From contig NC_017668.1 in assembly GCF_000284515.1 (NCBI RefSeq), positions 1,240,001 to 1,304,000 of the forward strand: DNA of 64,000 nt, written 5' to 3'. Positions 41,179-52,068 of the stretch are shown here, in pieces (positions within the stretch are counted from its first letter, which is position 1; every line of letters begins with the position of its first letter). Made by a program: the position numbers and the translations under genes. This stretch comes from Halobacillus halophilus DSM 2266. Lineage in GTDB: Bacteria > Bacillota > Bacilli > Bacillales > Halobacillaceae. The notes under the pieces are model-generated. The model did not search any database. It worked only from the letters and a program-made list of their open reading frames with translations, and was not told the origin of the DNA.

Positions 41179-41725
41179 AGGGCCGGATTGTTGAAGACTC
41201 AGTTTCGAGATAAATTGGGCCCGTTACGCTGTGAGGAGGGGGCTGGTGGGGAAATAACTCGCTTTCCTATGGGGGAACGGTGAGCTTCCTCGCTCGTTTC
41301 ACTCCCTGCGGGATCTCACCTAGTTCCTTCTCCCATGGGAGTCTCGCCATTTCCCCACCAACCCAGCTGAGTGAGAATAACGGACCCTTCCATAAAAGTG
41401 AATGCTCTCCTTCTAAATAGGCCTTGATTGCTTCTATGACAAGCTTTTTTACATCGTTCTAGCATGAAAATACACTCCTTATCCCATGCTTATTCTCACC
41501 AAGCAGACAGGGGATTTAGTGGTTTCGAGTTTCTGATTCGGCCAGGTCCGGAGGGGGACGATGTAGACTCCTGTGGGATGAACATGATCGGTAAGATCCC
41601 GCAGGGCTGTGAAGCCCGAGGAAGCTTACCACATGCCCACGGAAAGCGAAATCGTCCCCCTCCGGACCTAATTCTCTCAAAAGTCTCGAAACTGAGTCTT
41701 CAAGTAATGGGAGCTTTACTGTAAG
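41179..41725. repeat. Palindromic composite element, copy D (type 1 end, Y, linker, X, type 2 end)
   Basis: The cleanest copy in this phase. Left end AGGGCCGGATTGTTGAAGAC and TCAGTTTCGAGAT, right end GTCTCGAAACTGAGTCTTCA then AGTAATGGGAGCTTTAC. The outer left flank adds TTCAACAAT, which pairs with ATTGTTGAA inside the end. Y is 41242-41361, framed by CTGGTGGGGAAAT and ATTTCCCCACCA. X is 41545-41670, framed by GGTCCGGAGGGGGACGAT and ATCGTCCCCCTCCGGACC, a perfect 18-bp inverted pair. Confidence 0.85.
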
Positions 41726-43130: not shown

Positions 43131-43490
43131 TTGGCACATCTACATATTACCTCATGGGTAATCGCATTTGTTTTAGTGGGACTTGTTACAACATTTGCCC
43201 GGAGCGGTAATGATAAAGGGGCAAAAATATCCCATATGATTCTGCGGGCGGACTACTTATTGATTCTTTATTCAGGAGGATCGCTCTTTGCAAGTTACGC
43301 GAACTACGGCGGACTGATTATTTTCAAGGTTTTAGTCGGCTTGTGGACGATCGTGGCTATGGAAATGGCATGCGTGAAGTATAAGAAAAAGAAACCAGCT
43401 GCCATTTGGTGGGCGCAGCTGTTAATAGCAGGAGCCATCGCAATTATTTTAGGCTTTGGATTCCTTGGAGCAGGCATACTTCCTGCTTAA
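43131..43490 (+). CDS. yisL: YisL family membrane protein (UPF0344)
   Basis: 119 residues with four membrane helices. The start AHLHITSWVIAFVLV and the GAKISHMILRADYLLILYSG segment are the UPF0344/DUF1516 signature. Function unknown. The start is TTG at 43131, 7 bases after GGAGG. yisL is followed by asnO in this neighbourhood of B. subtilis as well. Confidence 0.92.
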   Translation: MAHLHITSWVIAFVLVGLVTTFARSGNDKGAKISHMILRADYLLILYSGGSLFASYANYGGLIIFKVLVGLWTIVAMEMACVKYKKKKPAAIWWAQLLIAGAIAIILGFGFLGAGILPA

Positions 43491-43729: not shown

Positions 43730-45571
43730 ATGTGCGGTATTGTGGGTTGGATTGATTACAAAAATAAAGTGCAGAATAAAACCCCTCTTTTAGAAAGGAT
43801 GGCCGATACCATCCGGCACCGTGGTCCAGACGATTATCAAACGTGGCTGGATGGGCCGGCAGCTTTCGGACACCAGCGTCTAATTGTTGTAGACCCGAAC
43901 GGCGGGAAACAGCCGATGGTACGGGAGGCACATGACGAACAGTATGTGCTTTGCTATAACGGTGAGTTATATAATACGGATGAAGTACGAGATACATTAA
44001 AAGCGAAAGGCTGGACGTTCCGCTCTCATTCGGATACGGAGGTTGTCCTTGTCAGTTTTATGGAGTGGGGCAGAGAATGCGTGGAGCGATTAAACGGTAT
44101 TTTCGCCTTCAGTATTTGGGAGAAAAAGAGAAAGCGTCTGTTTTTAGCTAGAGACCGGCTCGGGGTTAAGCCATTGTTTGTTCGTCATCAGCCGGATGGT
44201 CTGATGTTTGCTTCTGAGATGAAAGCCATCCTTGCCCATCCGGACGTAGAAGCAAGGGTTGGAGCGGAAGGAATTCAGGAAATTCTTACGCTTGGACCTT
44301 CGAGAACACCGGGGCACGGCATTTTTGAAACGTTGCAGGAACTTCGTCCAGGTCACCGGGCGTTTTGGGAAAAAGGAAAGCTTTCGATCGAGCGTTACTG
44401 GAATGTGAAGAGCGCCGAGCACACCGACACATGGGATGAGACCGTAGCACGTGTGAGGGAGTTATTTATTGATGCTTCCGAACGGCAGCTCGTTTCGGAT
44501 GTAACACTAGGTACTTTTTTATCGGGCGGGGTGGACTCAAGTGCCATTACGGCTGTAGCCGCTGAAAAATACAAAAATGAACAAAAGGGCGCGCTGCAGA
44601 CCTTTTCGATTGATTATAAAGATCAGGATAAATTCTTTAAGAAGAGCGCTTTTCAGCCGGACCGTGATGAAGCTTATATTAAGAAAGTCTCAAGCCAGCA
44701 TCAGACCCGTCATTACGTGATGGAAGCGACGCCTGAAGACCTAATATCAAGGCTGAAGCAGGCCGTAACACTACGGGATTTGCCAGGGATGGCAGATGTT
44801 GATTCCTCATTGCTGTGGTTTTGTGAACAAATTAAAAAACATGTAACGGTTGCGTTGTCAGGGGAATGCGCTGATGAAATATTTGGAGGCTATCCGTGGT
44901 TTTATAGAAAAGAAGATCAGGAGCGAAAAGGATTTCCTTGGATCCGGTCCTTAGATGAACGAATGAATTTAGTAAAAACGGATGTTAGTCAGAGTGTGAA
45001 TATGGAAGCGTACATGTTGAAACGTTATCAGGAGACGATCGATGAAACGCCGGTTCTTGCAGGAGAAGACGAAAAAGCGGTGAAACACCGACAGATGTCT
45101 TACCTCAATATGAACTGGTTTATGCAGACGCTCCTTGAGCGTAAGGACCGGATGAGTATGGGGGCAAGCCTTGAGGTTCGTGTACCTTTCAGCGATCATC
45201 GTCTGGTGGAATATGCGTGGAATATTCCGTGGAGCATGAAATTTCACGGGGATCAGGAAAAAGGTTTGCTTCGTGAAGCGTTGCGCGGCGTACTTCCTGA
45301 TGAAGTGCTGTTCCGAAAGAAAAATCCATATCCAAAAACGTTTCACCCCGCTTATACAAAAGCCGTCTGTACATGGATGAATGAAATAGTAGCCGATGCG
45401 AATGCTCCACTGTTCGATCTTTTCGACCGTAAAAAAGTGAGGAAGCTTAATGATTCAGAAGGTCAGGCGATCGGAGCCCCATGGTTTGGTCAGTTAATGA
45501 CAGGACCACAGCTAATCGCTCACCTCTGTCAAATTAATTATTGGCTCAAAACCTATCACGTACGTTTGTAA
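43730..45571 (+). CDS. asnO: Asparagine synthetase (glutamine-hydrolysing), AsnO-like
   Basis: A 613-residue enzyme. The N-terminal glutaminase begins MCGIVGWIDY, with Cys2 as nucleophile after Met removal, and includes RHRGPDDY and CYNGELYN. The synthetase domain has the PP-loop FLSGGVDSS (about 261-269) and SGECADEIFGGYPWFY. It makes asparagine from aspartate, ATP and glutamine. B. subtilis has three paralogues; AsnO (YisO), next to yisL, works in sporulation, and the shared position supports that name. GGATGGTG precedes ATG. Confidence 0.92.
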   Translation: MCGIVGWIDYKNKVQNKTPLLERMADTIRHRGPDDYQTWLDGPAAFGHQRLIVVDPNGGKQPMVREAHDEQYVLCYNGELYNTDEVRDTLKAKGWTFRSHSDTEVVLVSFMEWGRECVERLNGIFAFSIWEKKRKRLFLARDRLGVKPLFVRHQPDGLMFASEMKAILAHPDVEARVGAEGIQEILTLGPSRTPGHGIFETLQELRPGHRAFWEKGKLSIERYWNVKSAEHTDTWDETVARVRELFIDASERQLVSDVTLGTFLSGGVDSSAITAVAAEKYKNEQKGALQTFSIDYKDQDKFFKKSAFQPDRDEAYIKKVSSQHQTRHYVMEATPEDLISRLKQAVTLRDLPGMADVDSSLLWFCEQIKKHVTVALSGECADEIFGGYPWFYRKEDQERKGFPWIRSLDERMNLVKTDVSQSVNMEAYMLKRYQETIDETPVLAGEDEKAVKHRQMSYLNMNWFMQTLLERKDRMSMGASLEVRVPFSDHRLVEYAWNIPWSMKFHGDQEKGLLREALRGVLPDEVLFRKKNPYPKTFHPAYTKAVCTWMNEIVADANAPLFDLFDRKKVRKLNDSEGQAIGAPWFGQLMTGPQLIAHLCQINYWLKTYHVRL

Positions 45572-45600: not shown

Positions 45601-46140
45601 GTAAAGCTTCCAATACTTGAAGACTCATTTTCGAGATAAATGGGTCCGTTACGTTAGATGGATAAGGGTTGGTGGGGAAATAACTCGCTTTCCTGTGGGG
45701 GAACTGGTGAGCCTCCTCAGTCGTTTCACTCCCTGTGGGGTCTCACCTAGATCCTTCTCCCACGGGAGTCTCGCCATTTCCCACCAGCCCAGCCGAGTCA
45801 GAATAACGGACGCTATTATAAGAGAGGATGCTCTCCTTCTTAATCGGTCCTAAATGCTTTTGTGACAGTCTATTTCACATCGTTAAAGCATGAAATTAGC
45901 CTCTTGATCCCATGCTTTTTTTTCATGAACCCATCGATGTCTTAAATGATTTCGAGTTTCTGATTTTGGCCAGGTCCGAAGGGGGACGATGCAGACTCCT
46001 GCAGGATGAACATGATCGGTGAGATCCCGCAGGGCTGTTAAGCCCGAGGAAGCTCAGCACATGCCCGCGGAAAGCGAAATCGTCCCCCGCAGGACCTTTC
46101 CTCTCATAAAATATCTCGAAAAGAATTTTATACAGACTCA
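45601..46140. repeat. Palindromic composite element, copy E (type 2 end, Y, linker, X, worn type 1 end)
   Basis: The left end GTAAAGCTTCCAATACTTGA is the type 2 end seen at the right of copy D. Y is 45668-45789, framed by GGTTGGTGGGGAAAT and ATTTCCCACCAGCC. X is 45970-46090, starting at AGGTCCGAAGGGGGACGAT. The right end (ATCTCGAAAAGAATTTTATA) is worn. Read from its other side it has the same phase as copy G. No gene is evident from 45572 to 46311 apart from this element. Confidence 0.78.
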
Positions 46141-46311
46141 AATTTTACAACCGCATGGCTTTAGCAGCTGTGCGTTTTTTTATGTGGAGGCGCCTGTAAA
46201 TGTGACCATTGTATGTATTATTGAGAATTGATGCCGAGTACAATTGACGGGGAAGGCCTGGAAAGGATAATCTAAGAGAGTTACCTTTATTAGAAAGAAA
46301 GGAGAGCGGCC

Positions 46312-47775
46312 ATGAGAAAAGTAATAGCTGGGATTCTGTTTATTCCGTTATTTCTCTTTTTCGCTTCTCAAGCTGGAGCAGCAGAAACAGAAGAACGTCA
46401 ATGGCAGGATGAAAGCGTATACTATATATCGATTGATCGATTTATGAATGGCGATAATTCTAACGATAGGGAAGAAGATGAAGCCTATCACGGCGGTGAT
46501 TTAGAAGGAATTATCAAACAGCTGGATTATATTAAGGAGAAGGGATTTACAGCCATTGAGATCTCCCCAATGATGGCCAATCAAGATGGAGGGTATCATG
46601 GTCAATGGATCGACGATTTTCGATCGGTTGATGAACACTTCGGTACTATGAAGAAAGCCGAGCAGCTGGTCGAAGCAGCCCATGAACTGGACCTTAAGGT
46701 GATGTTTGATTTTGTGGTGTCCCATACCGGAAGCGATCATCCCTGGAAAGAGGATCCACAAAAAAATGATTGGTATGCGGAAGCTGACACTACCTATCCG
46801 GAAGCCTGGGCACAGAATATGTCCGTATTAAATCTGGACAATCCACAGGTACAGAGCTATTTCCTCGACACCGCTGAGTTCTGGATCAAGGAAACAGGAG
46901 TAGATGCGTTCCATTTACATAGTGCTGTTCCTTTACCCGATAAGTTTTATACAGATCTGGAGGCACGGGTTCAGTCCGTACAGGAAGGGTTTGGACTATT
47001 CACAGAAAATCTAAAAGGTGAAGACGATTCTTCCGTTTCCTTTCAGTCGGTGACGCGTGACACGTTTCAATCATCCGGAAAGAATCTTGATGATCTTTAT
47101 ACTGTTTGGGAGGATAACGTCGAACATAAAGGAAAACCTTACGAGACTCTTCGATATATCGATGACCCTTCAACCGGACGATTTACGCACTTGGCGGTAG
47201 AAGAAGGGCAGAATCCGATCACTCGCTGGAAGCTCGCTTTGACGTATCAGTTTACGATTCCAGGCATACCTGTCATGTACTTTGGTACGGAGCTGCCGCT
47301 TGATGATGGCGGCGATCCGTCAACCATTAAAATGATGAACTTCAAAGCAGGGGACGAGCAGCTGAAGCAGCGTATCGATAATTTAACTTCTATGAGAACG
47401 CAATTTTCTGCGCTCACACGCGGAGATTATGAAGAAATGTACAATGAAGAAGGTCTGGCTATTTTTAAACGGAGCTATGAAGACCAGACGATGATCGTTG
47501 CGATTAATAATGCAGAAGAAACGAAAGCCGCTGTACTTTCCGGTTTACCAGAAGGACAGCAGCTTAGAGGCCTTTTACATGATGGAATGGTACGACAGCA
47601 GGATAATGGGGACTACCGCCTTGGAATGGAAAGGGAAACCGCAGACGTTTTTGTGGTGGAACCTGACGAGGGCTATAATTGGCTGTTTATCGGTTTTGTC
47701 GGTGGTGTTCTTAGTTTATTTGTAATTGCCGTAACCGTGATCAGTCTTAAAAACCGGAAAACAGAACAAGCTTAA
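46312..47775 (+). CDS. Surface-anchored GH13 alpha-amylase homologue, probably inactive
   Basis: 487 residues: signal peptide (1-23, ending AGAAE), GH13 barrel, small C-terminal beta domain and a final membrane helix (about 455-478) with a short basic tail. Family landmarks are kept: QDESVYYISIDRFMNGD, YHGGDLEGIIKQLDYIKEKG, NPITRWKLALTYQFTIPGIP. The catalytic regions are changed. Region I is DFVVSH (Asn to Ser137). Region II is DAFHLHSA, so the Arg is His201 and the nucleophile Asp is His203. Region III keeps Glu232 (LFTEN). Region IV is YIDDPSTGRF, so the His-Asp pair is Pro286-Ser287. Normal hydrolysis seems impossible; binding of glycans or a structural role is inferred. Confidence 0.87.
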   Translation: MRKVIAGILFIPLFLFFASQAGAAETEERQWQDESVYYISIDRFMNGDNSNDREEDEAYHGGDLEGIIKQLDYIKEKGFTAIEISPMMANQDGGYHGQWIDDFRSVDEHFGTMKKAEQLVEAAHELDLKVMFDFVVSHTGSDHPWKEDPQKNDWYAEADTTYPEAWAQNMSVLNLDNPQVQSYFLDTAEFWIKETGVDAFHLHSAVPLPDKFYTDLEARVQSVQEGFGLFTENLKGEDDSSVSFQSVTRDTFQSSGKNLDDLYTVWEDNVEHKGKPYETLRYIDDPSTGRFTHLAVEEGQNPITRWKLALTYQFTIPGIPVMYFGTELPLDDGGDPSTIKMMNFKAGDEQLKQRIDNLTSMRTQFSALTRGDYEEMYNEEGLAIFKRSYEDQTMIVAINNAEETKAAVLSGLPEGQQLRGLLHDGMVRQQDNGDYRLGMERETADVFVVEPDEGYNWLFIGFVGGVLSLFVIAVTVISLKNRKTEQA

Positions 47776-47779
47776 TCTC

Positions 47780-47820
47780 AAACGCCCCTCTTTCCCTGCA
47801 GATGGAAAAGAGGGGCGTTT
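47780..47820. terminator. Bidirectional terminator between the GH13 and DUF4349 genes
   Basis: AAACGCCCCTCTTT and AAAGAGGGGCGTTT, 14 bp perfectly paired. Confidence 0.85.
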
Positions 47821-47823
47821 GAA

Positions 47824-48714
47824 TTAGGAGGATGACTTTTTCTTTTTTCTTCTGACCAGCCAAAAAAGCAGACCCACTCCGGCAATCAGCGCGAGAAATG
47901 GAGAGTAGCCCAGGAAGAATACAATGAGCCAGGAGAAGAATTGACCAACGTAATGCAACGAATTGATAAACGCCAGCTTGGTTTCTTCCCAGATGCTGCC
48001 CGGGGAGTTATTCAAATTTGCACCGGCCGCCGTTTCCTGGATGGAGACCGTGATCGTAGAAAAATCGCTCTGATTCTCTAAATACTTTATCTTCCCTTTT
48101 AATCCTTCAATTTCAGATTGAACGCGCTCGAGATCTTGAGAGATTTTTATTAAATCTTCGGTCGCTTCGGCTTGTTCCAAAAAGGTAAGCAGTCGCGATT
48201 CAATCTTTTCCTTAGCTTGCAGACGAGATTCTAAATCCACGTATTCTTCGGTAACATCGCGTCCGGATATATTTCTGGAGAGAACTTCACTGCTGATCTC
48301 TTCGATTTCTGTAAGCAGAGATTCAAAGTTCGGCTGAGGCACCCGGATGCGGATATGACCCTGCCGTCTGCCTTGCTCATTTTTGCTAATAGTGCTTTCG
48401 ACCATTTGAGCATCCTGCTGATTCATTCTTTCCTGAAGATGCTGGTGAAATTGATCGTAATTATTCGTTTCCACGTCGATATGAGCTTCATACACCATCA
48501 TGCGTTGTTCGCTACTTTGAGCGATACGGGCCGGGCCGTTTTCCTCACCGTTTTCCGCTTGAGAAGGAGTTTCTGACAATCCATTGGACTCGGCAGAATC
48601 GGACGAAGCTTCTTCGGATGTCTCCGCACTGTTGTCTTCATTTTGACTGCAGGCTGCTGAGACAGCAAGAAGCAGCATGATGCTTAAGGCAAGTTTCAGT
48701 ATCTTCGTCACCAT
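47824..48714 (-). CDS. DUF4349-domain lipoprotein
   Basis: 296 residues. The signal peptide ends in the lipobox VSAAC (Cys22), followed by a long Glu/Ser-rich linker (23-65). The DUF4349 domain (about 70-250) contains YEAHIDVETNNYDQF, RIRVPQPNFESLL and a coiled coil (EKIESRLLTFLEQAEATEDL and onwards). A C-terminal membrane helix (about 262-288) and KKKK tail follow. Tethered at both ends, it should lie on the outer face of the membrane. Role unknown. Confidence 0.9.
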   Translation of the reverse strand: MVTKILKLALSIMLLLAVSAACSQNEDNSAETSEEASSDSAESNGLSETPSQAENGEENGPARIAQSSEQRMMVYEAHIDVETNNYDQFHQHLQERMNQQDAQMVESTISKNEQGRRQGHIRIRVPQPNFESLLTEIEEISSEVLSRNISGRDVTEEYVDLESRLQAKEKIESRLLTFLEQAEATEDLIKISQDLERVQSEIEGLKGKIKYLENQSDFSTITVSIQETAAGANLNNSPGSIWEETKLAFINSLHYVGQFFSWLIVFFLGYSPFLALIAGVGLLFWLVRRKKKKSSS

Positions 48715-48775: not shown

Positions 48776-49636
48776 CTATTGAGGTGTATCATTTAAGAAA
48801 AATAAGGCAATGGTTCCGGGACCTGCATGAGCACCGACAGCTGAGCCGACCATTTCAAAACGGATATCTTCGGTCTCAAACTCGGATCGGATCATATCCG
48901 CCAGCTGCTCCGCGGTTTCCAAATCATCGCCGTGGCTGATGCCAATACGCTGATGTTTTAAATCTTTGCCGCGTTCCTTCATAATTTCAATCATTCGCTT
49001 CCATACTTTTTTCGAACCGCGAATTTTTTCAAGCGGAATAAGCTTACCATTTTCCATATGAAGCAGCGGTTTAATTTTAAGCAGGCTCCCGACAAATGCA
49101 GAAGCTTTGCTTACGCGGCCGCCGCGATATAAGTATTCCAGATCCGCGACCGTGAAAATATGCTCCATATGAGCTGCCTGAAACTTTCCAGCTTCTAAAA
49201 TTTCTTCGAATGAATAGCCATCTTCCGCAAGTTCAGCAGCTCTTATGGCCACCAGCCCGCAACCCAGAGAGGCTGCTTTCGTATCGATAACTTCGAACTG
49301 AGCGTGAGGGTACTCTTCTTTAATTTCTTCCTCTACCATTTTTGCGCTTTGATATGTACCGGATAGTTCCGATGAAAAGGCAAAATAAATAAAGGGCTGA
49401 TCGTTCTTTACAAATTCTGTGAACGTTTCTCGAAAAGCCTGGGAGGAAACCTGAGAAGTTTTAGGGGTTTCTCCGTTTCGCATTTTGTCATAGACGTCAC
49501 TGGGGGATATGGTTTTCCCGTCTTCATACTCTTCTCCATTAATGGTCACTTTTAAGGGGACCATGGTTAACGAATAGCTTTCGAGAGTTTCAGGGGATAG
49601 ATCACTGGCTGAATCACATACAATTTGCACATTCAT
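48776..49636 (-). CDS. DegV family fatty-acid-binding protein
   Basis: 286 residues. DegV/FakB proteins hold a fatty acid for phosphorylation by FakA. The start MNVQIVCDSASDL with the family DSxSDL-type motif, KTSQVSSQAF, SSELSGTYQSA and the C-terminal GSAVGAHAGPGTIALFF are all present. ATG at 49636 follows AGGTGAT; a longer frame to 49651 is rejected. It is divergent from the yitT-like gene. Confidence 0.92.
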   Translation of the reverse strand: MNVQIVCDSASDLSPETLESYSLTMVPLKVTINGEEYEDGKTISPSDVYDKMRNGETPKTSQVSSQAFRETFTEFVKNDQPFIYFAFSSELSGTYQSAKMVEEEIKEEYPHAQFEVIDTKAASLGCGLVAIRAAELAEDGYSFEEILEAGKFQAAHMEHIFTVADLEYLYRGGRVSKASAFVGSLLKIKPLLHMENGKLIPLEKIRGSKKVWKRMIEIMKERGKDLKHQRIGISHGDDLETAEQLADMIRSEFETEDIRFEMVGSAVGAHAGPGTIALFFLNDTPQ

Positions 49637-49830
49637 AAGATCACCTGCCATTTATATTCTTTCTTTAAGTTTAGGCATAATAGGAAGGATAGTCAAAGCA
49701 ATTACAAGAAAACGTACGACAATTAATGGGGCATTTCGACGGAATCTTTCACAGCTTACTCATCTTTAACTTGATTTTGTCTCGTTACGGTGATAAAAAA
49801 GATAGTAGACTACTCGTAGGAGGTTGCGGA

Positions 49831-50742: not shown

Positions 50743-52068
50743 ATGAAACATTTGTTAGCCATCTTAATGGGGGTCATGATGATTACCATGGCGGCCTGCG
50801 GAAATGAAGCAGATTCTGAGACTAAATCTAAGGAAGTTAAGGCAGAAGAACCACAAGCGGAAGAACAATCAGAGGAGAAAGCTGAAGAAGTGGAAGCATT
50901 TATTCAATCTTTGAATATGGAAGCGAACGTGGAAACATCGGAGGAGACAGCCGATTTTCAAATGTCGCTTGAAAACACGTCGGACGAGACTGTAACCTTA
51001 GGATTTACTTCCAGCCAGGAATATGAAATTCACGTAACGAATGCTGAAGGGGAAAGTGTTTACACATTTTCAGCTGATAAAATGTTTACCCAGGAAATGA
51101 TCAACAAAGATTTGGTAGCGGGTGAATCGTTAACGGCTGAAGAAACATGGACAGGCATTGAAGAGCCAGGGGACTACGAAGCCACTATAACGTTCCTGGT
51201 AAATTCAATCAATGAACAGCCATTAGAGGCTGAACCTTTCCAATTAACGAAATCATTTAGTGTTGAAGCTGCTGATCAAGAAACGGGGAACAGTCAGGAA
51301 GAAAATGAAGTACCATCTGAAGAACCTGAAAAAGAAAACCCGTTAGAATCTGATAAAGATAAAGAAACAAATGAAGAAGTAAAAACAGAAGAGAAGACTG
51401 TGAGTGTCGAGGAAGACGGGTTTCGTAATATTGAAGTAAGCGGTAAGGATGGAGCCTATACAGTCACGGGCGAAGCTCACGTATCGCACGGGGAATTTAC
51501 CTACCTCGTTGAAGATGGTCATCACGTGCTGATTGAACCTGAAACAATGGAAGTAGGAAATAAATCCGAATGGGCTCCTTTTACTCTTGAGCTTTCGATT
51601 CCAAATGAGGATTTACCTGATTTCGGTACGGTGACTCTTACGCTTGTAGTGAATTCTGAAGACAGTCAAGACGAAACCATAAAGAATGTTCCCTTAGAGG
51701 AAATTGCGCAGAGTGAGCCGGAGAATGATACGGAGTCAACGACGCGAGAGGTTGAAACTGAAGGCGAGGCATTCCGCAACGTAACCGTGTCTGGTGAGAA
51801 TGGTGCTTATACCATCGAGGGAGAAGCTCGTGTACACGAAGGCAGCTTTATTTATACAGTGGAAGATGGTCATTACGTACTGGTGGAACCAACATCTGTA
51901 CAAGTAGTCGAGGGTGCCCCTGCGTGGTCTTCATTCGAGATAGAGATTGATATTTCTGAGGAAGACCTGCCGACGTACGGTTCACTGACGTTGACTGTAT
52001 TTGAAGAAAGTGCTGAAGATGGAAGTCCTGTGCACGTTAACCATTTACTTCTACAGAAATTTAATTAA
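50743..52068 (+). CDS. Lipoprotein with BsuPI-like and two Gmad2-like domains
   Basis: 441 residues. The signal peptide ends in MAACGN (Cys19). An acidic linker is followed by a BsuPI-like beta domain (about 50-175; FQMSLENTSDETVTLGFTSS). Two copies of an Ig-like domain follow, each read as FRNIEVSGKDGAYTVTGEAH or FRNVTVSGENGAYTIEGEAR with VEDGHHVLIEP or VEDGHYVLVEP; this fits Gmad2. Linkers between are Glu-rich and disordered. It is a cell-surface protein with no evident enzyme activity, very acidic as expected in a halophile. Confidence 0.82.
   Translation: MKHLLAILMGVMMITMAACGNEADSETKSKEVKAEEPQAEEQSEEKAEEVEAFIQSLNMEANVETSEETADFQMSLENTSDETVTLGFTSSQEYEIHVTNAEGESVYTFSADKMFTQEMINKDLVAGESLTAEETWTGIEEPGDYEATITFLVNSINEQPLEAEPFQLTKSFSVEAADQETGNSQEENEVPSEEPEKENPLESDKDKETNEEVKTEEKTVSVEEDGFRNIEVSGKDGAYTVTGEAHVSHGEFTYLVEDGHHVLIEPETMEVGNKSEWAPFTLELSIPNEDLPDFGTVTLTLVVNSEDSQDETIKNVPLEEIAQSEPENDTESTTREVETEGEAFRNVTVSGENGAYTIEGEARVHEGSFIYTVEDGHYVLVEPTSVQVVEGAPAWSSFEIEIDISEEDLPTYGSLTLTVFEESAEDGSPVHVNHLLLQKFN

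Follow-up and report, generated by a model that had tools for sequence, protein, structure and literature searches.

A GH13_45-derived, membrane-anchored protein of Halobacillus halophilus that has lost its canonical catalytic residues and probably serves in the cell envelope

Organization of the locus

The window analyzed here is a stretch of 64,000 nucleotides covering 1.24-1.30 Mb of the 4,170,008-base genome of Halobacillus halophilus DSM 2266. It contains a 487-codon open reading frame that starts with ATG, has an AGGAG ribosome binding site directly 5', and is flanked by conserved genes on both sides (Table 1). The inverted repeat that follows it, judged from its sequence and its place, is probably a terminator common to the two convergent genes. 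No convincing Cre (CcpA) site was found 5' of the gene, the best candidates carrying 2-3 mismatches.

Table 1. Features of the pseudo-amylase gene and its surroundings (positions in the window).
Feature	Position	Strand	Basis
DUF1516 (yisL) gene, conserved 5' neighbour	43131..43490	+	
Asparagine synthetase gene (asnO type), conserved 5' neighbour	43730..45571	+	
Sigma-A type promoter-like site, TTGACG - 16 nt - GATAAT	46244..46271	+	10/12 consensus matches, consensus scan only
Ribosome binding site AGGAG, immediately 5' of ATG	46300..46304	+	sequence
Pseudo-amylase ORF, GH13_45-derived, membrane-anchored, 487 aa	46312..47775	+	sequence, Pfam, structure model
Predicted signal peptide, about residues 1-24	46312..46383	+	basic start, hydrophobic core, AGA/AE
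Domains A and B, TIM barrel, residues 28-371	46393..47424	+	Pfam, model, site rates
Ser137, replaces region I Asn	46720..46722	+	alignment
His201-Leu-His203, replaces Arg-x-Asp, region II nucleophile	46912..46920	+	alignment
Glu232, sole remaining catalytic-triad residue	47005..47007	+	alignment
Pro286-Ser287, replaces His-Asp, region IV	47167..47172	+	alignment
Domain C, residues 372-451	47425..47664	+	PF22026 at 371-447, model, site rates
C-terminal helix assigned as transmembrane, WLFIGFVGGVLSLFVIAVTVISL, and basic tail	47680..47748	+	hydrophobicity, model, analogy
14-bp perfect inverted repeat AAACGCCCCTCTTT / AAAGAGGGGCGTTT, between convergent genes	47780..47820	.	sequence
DUF4349 gene, convergent neighbour	47824..48714	-	
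DegV-family gene, conserved neighbour	48776..49651	-	

A 27-base sequence occurs twice in the window (41636-41662 and 46064-46090, 2 mismatches; chance expectation none), both times between genes and the second time just upstream of the pseudo-amylase gene, and it looks like a dispersed intergenic repeat.

Fold and subfamily

Pfam detected the alpha-amylase catalytic domain (PF00128, 4.6e-40) and Alpha-amylase_C_2 (PF22026, 6.8e-28), and the closest solved proteins by sequence were the GH13_45 amylases TASKA (2e-115) and GTA (2e-103), separated from the next match (3e-40) by about 60 orders of magnitude. An AlphaFold2 model made with 73 orthologues (pLDDT 87.8, pTM 0.84) had 5a2a as its top structural match (Z 47.8, 2.2 A across 420 residues). 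The first-pass annotation had described an amylase scaffold with a signal peptide and a C-terminal anchor, and the model agrees with it: the (beta/alpha)8 barrel and domains B and C of a GH13 protein are intact, helix 2-18 lies within the predicted signal peptide, and a long helix spans residues 457-486. This last helix, which carries a GxxGG motif, was assigned as transmembrane from its hydrophobicity and by analogy with a recent description of GH13_45 features from 2024, in which BmaN1 has a transmembrane helix in its C-terminal region (PMC11448133). The C-terminal region of about 30 residues with aromatic residues that is typical of GH13_45 is also present (GYNWLFIGFVGGVLSLF) and is helical in the model.

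The protein thus shares fold, domain order, signal peptide and C-terminal transmembrane segment with the GH13_45 alpha-amylases TASKA/ASKA, GTA and BaqA, and the tree nests its gene among canonical GH13_45-type genes. However, those enzymes keep the Asp-Glu-Asp triad, the WW pair and the LPDlx motif, whereas the window protein keeps only the Glu, has F190-W191 (AEFWIKE) in place of WW and lacks LPDlx in CSR-V (MSVLNLDNP versus LPDLAQENP); its gene, unlike theirs, lies outside a mal operon.

Loss of the catalytic residues

The roles of the residues in regions I-IV were set by alignment to TASKA and GTA, and the residues that the first-pass annotation had named (S137, H201, H203, E232, P286, S287) proved right in numbering, identity and role. 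Where a GH13 enzyme has an Asp nucleophile, a Glu acid-base and an Asp stabiliser, the window protein has H203, E232 and S287, so that the Glu is indeed the only member of the triad left. Other residues of the -1 subsite are gone as well, the stacking Tyr being Q98 and the region VII Arg being I339. A catalytic Asp relocated to another place, for which the first reading had allowed, was absent from the alignment near regions II and IV, and region II (VDAFHLHSAV) has no following Asp.

The canonical catalytic residues are therefore lost, and this strongly suggests loss of hydrolysis. Previous work described BmaN1, a GH13_45 protein with an aberrant triad that lacks two canonical residues and was nevertheless reported to hydrolyse starch (Sarian 2017, PMC5347038; PMC11448133), so the sequence alone is no proof of inactivity. 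BmaN1 has Lys-Asp at the nucleophile position and His294 at the stabiliser, whereas the window protein has two His in region II, with H203-S204 at the nucleophile and no neighbouring Asp, and Pro/Ser (S287) in region IV, which sets it outside the BmaN1 group. Sarian 2017 also noted a small group with irregular triad substitutions between BmaN1 and BaqA, which the window gene resembles as a GH13_45-like gene with an aberrant triad; Halobacillus is not named in the running text of that paper.

Orthologues and variation of the altered triad

Matches were found in 43 of 44 genomes of the same family and in 21 of 22 Halobacillus genomes, the exception being a 1000-contig assembly, and the reading frame is conserved in all 21. 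Every one of these Halobacillus copies has an altered triad, which supports the earlier idea of a non-hydrolysing surface-anchored protein. Fixation of the exact replacements in related species, which the first-pass annotation had listed as a point to check, holds for the two nearest (93-94% identity; the orthologue of Halobacillus halophilus AcN7-4 is 93% identical), which share HHEPS at the positions R/D/E/H/D, but other Halobacillus differ by subclade: KVNPN, RQNGT, RANGT, RVEFG, RLEYE, RHEFK, RISYD, RIEFL, HVTPF and others. Fixation throughout the genus is thereby ruled out, and there is no alternative active site common to it. Across 26 canonical relatives the catalytic and -1 subsite residues do not vary at all, and in the 21 Halobacillus rows they are scrambled.

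The canonical combination RDEHD was found in related genera. Orthologues with normal motifs, which the first-pass annotation had counted against itself if they existed beside a relaxed copy, thus do exist, in other genera only and mostly in mal operons. In the Planococcus family a match was found in 195 of 200 genomes and in 19 of 19 genera, and the yisL-linked members that were read are all altered (e.g., VDGIRLTN, VDSL..SRFT). In that family the gene behaves like a core gene. With the catalytic columns left out, the tree requires 6 state changes, and well-supported branches force 5 of these; the Cytobacillus plasmid copies and some long altered branches are uncertain in position. If lost residues are never regained, the altered genes would make up 8 separate clades. 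Two genes (L062 7594-9111 and L068 7632-9149) retain the triad carboxylates with the region IV His changed to Glu (LDYED), possibly an intermediate stage.

Selection and shift of constraint

The dN/dS of the gene against the closest species is about 0.09-0.12 (0.093 and 0.108 for the two nearest), within the range of its neighbours (0.017-0.182). The claim that selection keeps the 487-codon frame was thus borne out; frame conservation and dN/dS led us to reject a pseudogene, and the relaxed selection that would have accompanied a decaying copy was absent. The highest values of the neighbourhood, 0.16-0.18, belong to a gene with BsuPI and Gmad2 domains at 50743-52068.

The pattern of this purifying selection is different from that of active-type genes, with the constraint shifted away from the catalytic half and onto domain C and the membrane helix. 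By segment, dN/dS is 0.025-0.041 in domain C and the transmembrane helix and reaches 0.11-0.19 across the catalytic half (residues 136-243). Halobacillus sites in the catalytic half evolve at a relative rate of 1.61 and those in domain C plus the transmembrane helix at 0.62, versus 0.65 and 1.49 in the 26 canonical genes; domain C as such evolves at 0.69x versus 1.37x, and the transmembrane helix is among the most conserved segments within Halobacillus. The p-distances for catalytic half, domain C and transmembrane helix are 0.629 / 0.324 / 0.163 in Halobacillus and 0.185 / 0.463 / 0.471 in a same-family control of 5 canonical genes. As this control keeps the canonical pattern, the reversal is not due to taxonomic breadth. 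It means that the active site is no longer specially constrained and that the membrane-proximal half is newly constrained. Relative to the protein average, the rate of the -1 subsite positions is 1.22 in Halobacillus and 0.10 in active-type relatives, and because they evolve so fast, the glycan binding suggested in the first reading finds no support as far as it would use the old cleft.

Locus history and the maltodextrin operon

Canonical genes occur in the order malE-malF-malG-AMY-(GH31)-malR beside a neopullulanase gene, often between asnO and DUF4349/degV, whereas the altered form, in Halobacillus and in the other genera that have it, is found by itself in the slot yisL-(asnO)-AMY-degV-yitT. 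Among 77 mapped loci, mal transporter genes are present at 22 of 23 canonical loci and absent at 53 of 54 altered ones (altered meaning not RDEHD, which takes in two genes with the triad kept but the His lost). By position, the window gene is orthologous to an active-type amylase gene that elsewhere belongs to a malEFG operon. Operon loss and triad loss agree at 75 of the 77 loci, but these represent only 4-5 independent changes (sign test p 0.25, underpowered), so the link cannot reach significance. Five loci retain a malR relic only, one canonical (G028) and four altered (G066, G067, G024, G063), and look like a decay series, in which the canonical locus of G028 (L071) was apparently caught between displacement and decay. 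The lone altered exception (G058, L117) still belongs to a complete malEFG operon despite its altered triad, and an extra neopullulanase-like gene is adjacent.

H. halophilus itself has a maltodextrin operon at about 3.07 Mb with malE, malF, a LacI regulator and a neopullulanase, a further 280-aa gene in the place of malG and no GH13_45 gene, and a separate 935-aa amylase is encoded at 3.057 Mb. Both other GH13 enzymes, the neopullulanase and the 935-aa amylase, keep the standard motifs (e.g., GFRLD, GEVW, DSHD).

Second copies in metal-resistance islands

A GH13_45-like anchored copy was present on nine plasmid records (Planococcus 3, Cytobacillus 4, Priestia 1, Halobacillus amylolyticus 1), of which those from one genus are not independent. 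The regions read, in six to seven of the nine records, were all metal-resistance regions, and the six plasmid-encoded proteins that were aligned all had altered triads. Moreover, spare envelope genes accompany eight genomic second copies, which lie in metal-resistance or cytochrome/Dsb islands. The order CDF-AMY-M23-P-ATPase-ArsR-CopC-CopD recurs in seven Planococcus-type genomes that have a second copy, one of them cut at a contig end, and in G062b ccdA is adjacent and a Tn3 transposase gene is nearby.

The islands contain varying selections of metal genes (CDF, ZIP, P-type ATPases, ArsR, CopC/CopD, FeoAB) together with varying second copies of qoxABCD, ctaA/ctaG, resAB/ccdA, dsbA and its partner, LTA synthase, lgt, D,D-carboxypeptidase and a PcsB-like M23 peptidase. 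LTA synthase of the island type is encoded on 32 of 72,556 plasmids, including 6 of the 9 with the amylase gene (background rates roughly checked). On the tree, four island origins have to be assumed separately, one each in Halobacillaceae, the Planococcus family, Priestia and Cytobacillus, the position of the Cytobacillus plasmid copies being uncertain. This repeated pickup of altered copies along with spare envelope machines is, as gene association, our best clue to function, and the first-pass suggestion of a cell-wall factor receives circumstantial support from the company of LTA synthase, M23 peptidase and other envelope genes.

As a separate observation, four Bacillales plasmid metal islands (L175, L176, L177, L178) have spare quinol oxidase, heme A and cytochrome maturation genes as well as spare Dsb, Lgt, LTA synthase and peptidoglycan enzymes, as if these envelope genes replaced exported proteins poisoned by metal.

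Proposed function

Taken together, the gene probably encodes a non-hydrolysing, membrane-anchored GH13_45 pseudoenzyme with an envelope role exerted via its membrane-proximal half. The ancestor would have been a surface alpha-amylase of the GH13_45 type in a maltodextrin operon; the malEFG operon may then have departed from the asnO-degV locus, leaving the amylase behind, whose active site would have decayed through different residues in each lineage while the protein was retained for another role. The product would be exported and held in the membrane by its C-terminal helix, acting as an envelope scaffold or ancillary protein that might use domain C, helix alpha-8 and the transmembrane helix to contact a membrane partner. 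The preserved membrane end and the spare copies in metal-resistance clusters point to a probably new job in the envelope, a role that gene association suggests.

It is unlikely that the protein is instead a surface glycan-binding one, whose dead barrel still binds starch or some other polysaccharide and offers it to transporters. Its descent from a maltodextrin-operon amylase, the help in raw-starch binding proposed for the C-terminal aromatic residues of GH13_45 (PMC11448133) and the altered gene still within the mal operon of G058 would fit, but the -1 subsite including the stacking Tyr position evolves at or above the protein average, the gene is apart from mal genes almost everywhere, and the island copies accompany metal and respiratory genes and no sugar genes. 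We give little credence to a role mainly in metal homeostasis or stress, for example as protector or chaperone of exported enzymes that are sensitive to metals. No metal genes occur at the chromosomal locus (yisL, asnO, DUF4349, degV, yitT), although in four separately placed lineages the second copies adjoin CDF, ZIP, P-type ATPase, CopC/CopD and ArsR genes; the presence of oxidase, Dsb, Lgt and LTA synthase copies in the islands as well speaks for the envelope at large. An enzyme that works through a rearranged catalytic apparatus, like the one claimed for BmaN1, which was reported active with only the Glu at its canonical place (PMC5347038), appears quite improbable: Glu232 is present, but the nucleophile position has no adjacent Asp, many close orthologues lack the Glu, and no replacement is common to Halobacillus. 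A gene decaying toward loss and without current function could account for the active-site drift and for the dN/dS of altered pairs being mostly higher (about 0.05-0.16) than that of canonical pairs (0.046-0.06), yet it is very improbable given an intact frame in 21 Halobacillus genomes, dN/dS far below 1, near-universal presence in the Planococcus family and a stronger conservation of the transmembrane helix and domain C than active-type relatives show.

For the envelope pseudoenzyme that we favour, a parallel is found in the mammalian SLC3 proteins rBAT and 4F2hc, which have GH13-fold ectodomains on a single transmembrane segment, are regarded as fake or orphan glucosidases and serve as ancillary subunits of transporters (PMC8537225). 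The window protein likewise combines a seemingly dead GH13 ectodomain with a single transmembrane helix, but in rBAT and 4F2hc the helix is at the N-terminal side, a covalent link to an SLC7 light chain exists and the setting is vertebrate, whereas here the helix is C-terminal; the likeness is thus one of working principle only. Neither protein is among the best 50 structural matches, places filled by enzymes, an absence which excludes nothing. As a tentative and rather doubtful extension, the window protein might be a bacterial counterpart of 4F2hc/rBAT: a dead amylase domain on a membrane helix that arose several times after loss of the maltodextrin operon and is now a core ancillary or chaperone subunit of an envelope membrane machine, metal-sensitive enough that resistance islands repeatedly carry a spare.

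Relation to previous work

Irregular triads in the GH13_45-like group have been known since 2017 (PMC5347038). Our searches found nothing on GH13 pseudoenzymes and nothing relevant on metal islands with such envelope genes or on amylase and metal resistance in Planococcus, and the literature searched, which leaves most subscription papers outside, contained no report of the operon decay, the constraint shift, the core status or the island copies. In Bacillales, many such genes carry the annotation 'alpha-amylase family glycosyl hydrolase', and for the aberrant-triad group one enzyme provides the whole case for activity. Our results suggest that many of these genes encode pseudoenzymes whose envelope function has gone unrecognised and which are near-universal in one family. 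The genes form a graded series from enzyme to pseudoenzyme: operon intact, regulator relic only, orphan, dead, and duplicated into metal islands.
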